Of a stretch of 64,000 bases of DNA, positions 58,915 through 60,832 are shown piece after piece. The stretch spans positions 1,709,018 through 1,773,017 of the forward strand of contig NZ_LUKE01000001.1 of the NCBI RefSeq assembly GCF_001592735.1. Direction: 5' to 3'. A program made the position numbers and the translations under genes. The stretch's first letter is position 1, and every line of letters begins with the position of its first letter. This DNA comes from Bdellovibrio bacteriovorus (GTDB lineage Bacteria > Bdellovibrionota > Bdellovibrionia > Bdellovibrionales > Bdellovibrionaceae). The notes beneath the pieces are model-generated. The model was not told where the DNA came from. It made no database searches and was given only the letters and a program-made list of their open reading frames with translations.

Positions 58915-60705
58915 CTAACCAGCAAACACGGATCGGCAAGAGCCTCCGTGGACAGAGTCATTTAAAACTTTTATCGGTGCTTGGACTTTCATCGTCTTGC
59001 CAAGCTTAGCATCAAACACGGTGCGCTCATACTTACCATTCACGCGGCGTTCGCTGATCACCAAGGTGTAAGGTTTGGCATCATGGAAATCACGACGGCT
59101 TTGTTCAATAGTTGAATCAATCAAAGTTTGAACTGAGCTGATTTTACCGCCTTTTTCTTTAAATTCGTCGTTTACGGCCCAAATTTTCTTTTCGTTATCT
59201 ACCGTAGAAAAAAGTTCCGTCATCTTTTTGTTACGAATCTTCGCGGCTTCTAAACGATATTTTCCCTCGGCTTGGCCTGAAATGCCTACTTGCGCTAGCA
59301 TATCTTGTTGCATACGGAAAGTTCGCACATACCACTCAATAAGCTGCGCCCTTAAAGCGGAGTCTGGCACCAAGGCCATCAGTTTTGCGGTGTCGGCGGG
59401 TGCACTTAAGTTCAACTCTGCTAATGCTGTCATGACTTTTTCAAGACTGTAAGTTCCTTGTTTAAAATAATCTTCTGCAAACCCAGGAAGTTTCCACTTC
59501 TCAATTTCCTTCTCATTGCCAGCTTCCGCCATGGACTTAACTAGCTTGGCTAACTGCAAACCTTCATGAGTATTTAATAAAGCCGAAGTCGTTTCGTTAA
59601 ATGAGCCGGCTAGGCGCAACATTTCTAGCAGCTGCGTGCGCTCGAACGTTTGATCAAATCTCTCAAACCATTCTTGCTCTGAAGGCATGGCGCGAGCCAA
59701 TTCTGGTGGTAACGTTTTAACCAAACTGTCACGCATGTCCTTTAAAAGATCTGTTTTATATACCTTTGTTTCGCCATTAAACCCATCATCATGAATAACA
59801 CGGATTTTTTGGTAACCGTCTAAGGCTTGATAAGTTCCAAAGTCCAAGGCGCGACCATCCATACCTGCATTTGACGGGCTGGTTCCGCCGTGGAAAAGAC
59901 TGTGTGCCCAACCGTAAGAATGCATTTGCGCTTGGCGATCGATCATTTCAAAGATCCCTGAGCGGAAACGCTCAGCTTCCGTTCGTGCGGTGGAATTTTT
60001 AGGTTGAGGCAAAGCATTGGTAATATGTTTCATAGCATCACTGATGCGATTTTTTTCGCGTTCAGTGCCGCGCTTTTGTCCATTTTCATTCACGACAAAG
60101 TGAGCAGGGCGAATCGGGGCTTCACGAACGATAAGTACGCGAGGTTCACCGTCGGGACCACCAACTCGGGTGCCGGTGGCGATGATCGCTAAAACGCGAT
60201 GGGCCCCTCGAGGCAACTCATCAGCTAAAAGGTTGGACCAAATGGCCTCATGAATTCCTTCAGGCAATAACGAGGCTCCGTTGCGATGGCTGGCTTCGGA
60301 TGTCGCGGCAACAAAAGGTGTGATACCTCCACCTTTATTTTCCCACATCGAATCCACGGTGAAAGTACGTCCGTTGCCTTCGTTTCCATTTAATCCAATA
60401 CCGCCATACCCATCGGCATAGACAGTCTTTGTTTTATTCGTATATCCACCGGCTGTTTCCCCTGAAACCGGGGCGGCAAAAGCGGTCATCTCTAAAACTT
60501 TTTGCAGATCAAGACCTTGTTCGGCCATAAGCTTATGATTTAGGTAAATGGCGTTGGGATTTGCGAGCTGTTTGGCTTGCATCGGTACGAAGGCTCCCGC
60601 GCCGATAATCTTTGCGGCGTCTGGCAGTGGAGCTTTTTGGGCATAAGCCATGGGTTGGAAAGCCATAGTGAATGCGACTAGTGATAAAACAGATCGTGCT
60701 TTCAT
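58915..60705 (-). CDS. Exported SelO/YdiU-like protein (divergent protein AMPylase fold)
   Basis: ATG at 60705 (after AAAGG) gives a signal peptide (MKARSVLSLVAFTMAFQPMA, cleavage near YAQ) and 596 residues. The order of blocks follows SelO: LANPNAIYLNHKLMAEQGLD, a glycine-rich loop NGNEGNGRTF, NKGGGITPF with Lys124, GIHEAIWSNLLADELP with Glu153, then HGGTSPSNAGMDGRALDFG with Asn279 and Asp288. The 9-residue spacing from Asn to the DFG Asp equals that in SelO. The residue before Asn is Ser instead of the catalytic Asp. SelO moves AMP to Ser, Thr or Tyr of redox proteins, usually in the cytoplasm or mitochondria. Here it would act in the periplasm or outside. I infer the family from these motifs. 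Confidence 0.75.
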   Translation of the reverse strand: MKARSVLSLVAFTMAFQPMAYAQKAPLPDAAKIIGAGAFVPMQAKQLANPNAIYLNHKLMAEQGLDLQKVLEMTAFAAPVSGETAGGYTNKTKTVYADGYGGIGLNGNEGNGRTFTVDSMWENKGGGITPFVAATSEASHRNGASLLPEGIHEAIWSNLLADELPRGAHRVLAIIATGTRVGGPDGEPRVLIVREAPIRPAHFVVNENGQKRGTEREKNRISDAMKHITNALPQPKNSTARTEAERFRSGIFEMIDRQAQMHSYGWAHSLFHGGTSPSNAGMDGRALDFGTYQALDGYQKIRVIHDDGFNGETKVYKTDLLKDMRDSLVKTLPPELARAMPSEQEWFERFDQTFERTQLLEMLRLAGSFNETTSALLNTHEGLQLAKLVKSMAEAGNEKEIEKWKLPGFAEDYFKQGTYSLEKVMTALAELNLSAPADTAKLMALVPDSALRAQLIEWYVRTFRMQQDMLAQVGISGQAEGKYRLEAAKIRNKKMTELFSTVDNEKKIWAVNDEFKEKGGKISSVQTLIDSTIEQSRRDFHDAKPYTLVISERRVNGKYERTVFDAKLGKTMKVQAPIKVLNDSVHGGSCRSVFAG

Positions 60706-60832
60706 GAGCATGCCTTTCAATAGATCGGTTTTTACGGCGTTGCCATTTTTCGCGACGACTTGATCAAACTGCCAACAGTGATCATGCGCTATAATTTACG
60801 CCGTAGTCAAAAGACCGATTCATCCAAGAAGA

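Follow-up and report, generated by a model that had tools for sequence, protein, structure and literature searches.

The gene at positions 58915 to 60705 on the minus strand of the window (the whole 64,000-nucleotide stretch of Bdellovibrio bacteriovorus DNA analyzed here) almost certainly encodes an exported SelO-like protein of the MchC branch. With confidence just short of even, we propose that this protein is an accessory exported ATP-dependent enzyme that has no need of a general base, is perhaps carboxylate activating, and acts outside the cytoplasm or in prey. The gene specifies 596 amino acids followed by a stop codon (58915 to 58917); reading of the minus-strand frame places its start at an ATG (60703 to 60705), with a Shine-Dalgarno-like GAAAGG (60713 to 60718, minus strand) 7 nucleotides ahead of it. 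A TTG start at 60720, taken from a mechanical open reading frame call, is unneeded, and the upper bound of 60705 is right. The gene stands alone, with a divergent small lipoprotein-like gene to its right and GFA-like and MerR-like genes (assigned by eye) to its left, and these neighbors are unrelated to a microcin cluster. No partner gene, or any further gene, was common to the exported loci compared. A run of genes of 400 to 480 amino acids immediately upstream was considered as a source of candidate partners and turned out to encode unrelated proteins, and a phage origin was rejected because the phage search gave no match.

The N terminus (MKARSVLSLVAFTMAFQPMAYA, followed by QK) is a plain Sec-type signal peptide covering residues 1 to 22 (60640 to 60705, minus strand; AYA/QK junction). 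Signal peptides were assigned by hydropathy and a motif rule, and the hydrophobic core had a KD value of 2.33 in the window protein, compared with 0.4 or less in SelO. Signal sequences were present in the exported homologues with readable N termini, with the exception of L022 (two further N termini are masked by N), and one homologue, L017, carries a lipoprotein signal with the lipobox LTSC. A comparable hydrophobic N terminus was found in none of the SelO and none of the MchC sequences compared. The signal peptide named in the preliminary description is thus borne out by hydropathy and by its recurrence in homologues. A fold that uses ATP would suit a protein that stays in the cytoplasm and whose signal peptide is spurious, but this recurrence in nearly all homologues with readable N termini, one of them a lipoprotein, and the lack of such signals in MchC and SelO make that reading very improbable. 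For B. bacteriovorus, release of a reporter to the supernatant requires no more than a Sec signal peptide, and the bdelloplast is reached by a Bd0468 fusion (PMC12622784).

The Pfam SelO model (PF02696) matched the protein with an E value of 4.2e-6 and 26.2 bits, above the gathering score of 22.8, and the NCBIfam YdiU-family/SelO equivalog gave 6e-7 and 22.9 bits, far under its cutoff of 900. In a sequence search of the PDB, YdiU and SelO came up with values of about 0.004. The mature protein was modeled with AlphaFold2 on an alignment of 28 sequences (the window protein and scanned loci), and the resulting model had a pLDDT of 86.7 and a pTM of 0.89. The first nine Foldseek matches to this model were SelO/YdiU chains (1e-12 to 3e-11), with the next match at 0.02. 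In VIA-align, Pseudomonas syringae SelO (6eac) reached a Z score of 26.2 across 424 residues, compared with 11.8 for the best non-SelO structure, the siderophore synthetase SbnC, and less than 10 for ordinary kinases. The predicted fold is therefore the SelO-type kinase-like fold, common to SelO and YdiU (6eac; Escherichia coli YdiU, 9jym) over the whole chain, and the protein is a member of the SelO superfamily. Both the family assignment and the fold, on which the preliminary description had depended, held up when checked, with SelO/YdiU as the sole strong structural match. The identity to these proteins is 13 to 17%, and the window protein differs from them in being exported. Most exported homologues have an extra C-terminal Ig-like beta domain (e.g., residues about 545 to 660 of L092), which the window protein lacks and which gives weak matches to PF23166, the Ig domain of glucan water dikinase, and to CBM53.

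Within the superfamily, the window protein scored 218 bits with an MchC HMM but only 38 bits with a canonical SelO HMM. A maximum-likelihood tree grouped MchC with the exported proteins in one clade (99/97) apart from SelO, and MchC was monophyletic (100/99) within an exported grade of Bdellovibrionota, with the window protein outside the MchC subgroup. The earlier label of exported SelO-like protein is therefore correct in its fold, family, and export signal, but the protein belongs to the MchC branch and is not a modified SelO. Dudkiewicz et al. 2012 (PMC3281104), a paper in which the word Bdellovibrio is absent, had already shown that MchC belongs with the SELO proteins as a distant subfamily whose HGD-like motif varies; a literature word search found no paper in which Bdellovibrio and SelO occur together.

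MchC and MceJ, which take part in the maturation of siderophore microcins (microcins H47, M, and E492), share the RPAH motif and a Ser in place of a catalytic Asp with the window protein, and QIKGIG occurs in relatives. MchC is cytoplasmic and lies beside, or is fused with, HlyC-like MchD near microcin export genes, whereas the exported form starts with a signal peptide, ends in a Cys tail, and lacks both MchD and microcin genes. In the MchC loci examined, an MchD/HlyC-like gene adjoins MchC or is fused to it; no such gene lay near the exported genes in any of the exported loci examined, and a PF02794 (HlyC-like) search that detected the positive control records found none in this genome or in the nine searched genomes that encode exported members. 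MchC and MchD appear to be fused or overlapping in Albitalea (L102:7842-11282) and Mitsuaria (L110:7836-10504), supporting a tight MchC-MchD complex. Together, MchC/MceJ and MchD/MceI couple the carboxylate of the microcin C-terminal serine to a glucosylated siderophore (PMC7680869, PMC7472721), and according to PMC7472721 what exactly MchC/MceJ contributes is not established.

Homology searches turned up about 20 homologues across the phylum Bdellovibrionota but none in the 23 congeners searched. A scan of 84,980 species yielded 28 loci, comprising 9 Bdellovibrionota MAGs and 19 others of the MchC type, nearly all gamma- or betaproteobacterial. In the plasmid collection, matches were confined to MchC proteins of microcin-type clusters in Gammaproteobacteria.

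Other SelO relatives were observed along the way. The B. bacteriovorus genome has a third SelO-superfamily protein (L072:3663-5522; G000:C1, about 941.7 kb, plus strand), which is cytoplasmic, has 620 amino acids including WDGDNVLADAGIIDYGS, gave an hhalign E value of 2e-12 without a Pfam match, and has relatives in dozens of the 369 phylum genomes searched; these proteins are apparently an unnamed family. A separate exported SelO family, which we call family B, also occurs in the phylum (L090:7407-9236, L091, L253, L254, and L255; Pfam SelO at 8e-12 for L090). Its members L090, L091, L253, and L254 resemble the window protein in having a signal peptide and a near-terminal Cys but differ in a Gly preceding the metal Asn (SPTAGN), and the family clusters with SelO in the tree on long branches that leave its placement unsure. 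Two adjacent minus-strand genes (L155:13929-15545 and L155:15588-17087) encode exported proteins ending in GKCQAVF and SCGRVLGF. The first (539 amino acids) has IKGYGG, R..R, DNFGIAEVVDFG, and K..E..DN..DFG-like motifs, but its candidacy as a very distant SelO relative was rejected because the profile comparison was not significant; the second is transglutaminase-like by eye.

The residue set of the flipped ATP site in the SelO superfamily (Lys, Glu, two Arg, Asn, and the DFG Asp) is present in the window protein. Alignments equate Lys124 (60334 to 60336) with SelO K113, Glu153 (60247 to 60249) with E136, and Arg194 and Arg199, in the motif VREAPIRPAH (60109 to 60126), with the gamma-phosphate arginines R176 and R183; R113 is also retained. 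The metal-binding residues, Asn279 (59869 to 59871) and Asp288 of the DFG (59842 to 59844), are invariant and 9 residues apart. Ser278 (59872 to 59874; all of these coordinates are on the minus strand) takes the place of the Asp that precedes the metal-binding Asn in canonical SelO and is its proposed general base. Lys124, Glu153, Asn279, Asp288, their spacing, and Ser278 are all as first described. Among 14 exported homologues, K124, E153, R199, N279, and D288 were invariant and S278 was at least 90% conserved, and the conservation of the site, judged from these sequences, is far beyond chance.

In a joint alignment, the residue preceding the metal Asn was Asp in all 8 SelO sequences, Ser in all 24 MchC sequences, and Ser in 17 of 18 exported proteins (Thr in the other). 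The MchC core encoded in the E. coli microcin H47 cluster (LTTSPSNIAMDGRLMDFNG) and that of the window protein (GGTSPSNAGMDGRALDFG) have TSPSN...DF in common. The Ser is thus an old conserved state of the branch and not a defect of the window protein, and the changed active site noted earlier is real in that Ser replaces the proposed base Asp but is the rule in the MchC/exported group, not a private change. How much the replacement matters depends on the role of the Asp. D252 has been named the general base of SelO (PMC8017715), whereas a review assigns deprotonation to D262, the DFG Asp (PMC8097203), in which case the change at Ser278 matters less.

The review's assignment, the SelO-like fold, and the retention of all nucleotide residues would all suit an exported hydroxyl AMPylase of the SelO kind, with deprotonation by Ser278, another residue, or Asp288. 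We consider such an enzyme unlikely, since the base Asp is Ser across MchC and nearly all exported proteins but Asp in every canonical SelO sampled, and since this genome already encodes a canonical SelO (448 bits). The possible extracytoplasmic AMPylase of the preliminary description is, as a hydroxyl AMPylase, unsupported. The missing base Asp and the absence of a partner gene could instead indicate a pseudoenzyme or scaffold that binds and senses nucleotides outside the cell. This also seems an unlikely explanation, as the Lys, the Glu, the two Arg, the Asn, and the Asp of the site persist almost without exception at 20 to 40% identity, which would be unusual after loss of catalysis, and as the same site in MchC is needed for a covalent modification.

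The window protein is probably catalytic with ATP. From the computed homology, fold, export signal, ATP and metal residues, clade-wide Asp-to-Ser change, and missing MchD partner, we infer a mode of ATP binding and a chemistry. Mg-ATP would be bound as in SelO, with the gamma-phosphate buried by K124, E153, R194, and R199 and the metal held by N279 and D288, and the nucleophile attacking the alpha-phosphate would be one that reacts without being deprotonated, a carboxylate being the simplest case. Because a carboxylate is already ionized, a SelO-like site without a base would be well suited to AMP transfer onto it; we favor base-free (carboxylate) chemistry only tentatively and somewhat short of evenly. 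The product would be an acyl-adenylate or an AMP-modified target, which would suit MceJ/MchC in attaching a siderophore at the C-terminal carboxylate of a microcin. We thus propose carboxylate activation for MchC and, less confidently, for the exported form, to which the MchC reaction is not simply transferable because no MchD-like acyltransferase was found near the exported genes or, by PF02794, in the genome. SidJ-type pseudokinase glutamylases, which we liken to these proteins by description and not by sequence comparison, use a kinase-like fold for AMP-dependent carboxylate activation and work in host cells with calmodulin. Such glutamylases are mentioned in PMC12599244.

The place of action would be outside the predator cytoplasm and would need ATP there, a supply that we assume. 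Since the periplasm holds little ATP, the likeliest site would be the prey, as an invaded cell or as the cytosol of a lysing one, and the sufficiency of a Sec peptide for release together with the Bd0468 fusion in the bdelloplast (PMC12622784) makes prey a possible one. Action on or in prey is a suggestion that we consider somewhat more unlikely than likely, and slightly less probable than base-free chemistry.

The window protein ends in CRSVFAG (58918 to 58938, minus strand), containing its sole Cys, C590, six residues from the C-terminal end. A Cys 4 to 14 residues from the end was found in 25 of 28 complete exported-branch members and in 5 of 37 cytoplasmic SelO, MchC, and third-family proteins (Fisher P value = 8e-10, indicative only because the sequences are related; the MchC proteins among the five are Cys rich). 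SelO has been reported to act as an NADase for which its C-terminal Cys/Sec is essential (PMC13391479), and YdiU with NAD was among the best structural matches, so the near-terminal Cys might point to an extracytoplasmic NAD/nucleotide pyrophosphohydrolase that salvages prey nucleotides. However, the tail is unordered in both predicted models, and the same tail occurs on Fic and J-domain proteins and so is probably outside SelO chemistry; we regard this activity as quite improbable.

A DNA pattern for C-[RS]-x-V-F-A-x-stop occurred three times in the B. bacteriovorus genome (control, 0), each time at the genuine end of an exported protein, namely the SelO-like protein, a Fic protein, and a J-domain protein. 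The Fic protein (G000:C1:394925-398875; L142:14928-18875, minus strand; about 1,310 amino acids) ends in AMCRNVFAI and contains HPYSDGNGRLARL and HPYSDGNGR (PF02661, 6e-8); Fic is the classic AMPylase fold. The J-domain protein (G000:C3:87301-88614; L223:105-1415, minus strand; DnaJ, 3e-15) ends in NKCSKVFAE. Neither tail-bearing protein was found in the 23 congeners. Distant homologues of the two retain the near-terminal Cys with the remainder diverged (NVCSKLFN and GRGCSSAWETLKAKLK); the first of these endings belongs to the J-domain homologue in G043 (L250), whose similarity otherwise stops at the J domain. In the congeners, matches to the tail pattern were mostly chance, with one real gene (G005:C1:3253094; L251), whose unrelated exported product (about 250 amino acids) ends in CRTVFAL, has DIDWT near its N terminus, and is HAD-like by eye.

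A general tail of C followed by two residues and two hydrophobic residues was not enriched among exported proteins genome-wide (6/450 versus 9/658; another count gave a mild excess only), and the tight C-[RS]-x-V-F-A-x form alone stood out. The motif was picked after two examples and to that extent counts for little; independent support comes from the third example and the homologues. Because the tail is common to three unrelated folds, a tag is likelier than a catalytic element. We suggest, rather doubtfully, that the Cys tail (C-x-x-hydrophobic-hydrophobic, here in its tight form) may be a tag by which Bdellovibrionota sort or attach a set of accessory Sec-exported proteins (MchC/SelO-like, Fic, J-domain, and others) and deliver them to one shared destination, possibly prey with its available ATP.

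Overall, the MchC branch, known from gamma- and betaproteobacterial bacteriocin clusters, has an exported form across Bdellovibrionota in which a single conserved substitution affects the proposed catalytic base. Two questions are thereby made testable, namely the chemistry of MchC/MceJ and the secretion of nucleotide-using modifying enzymes by Bdellovibrio-like predators, and the tail common to exported Fic and J-domain proteins offers a search handle for further candidates.
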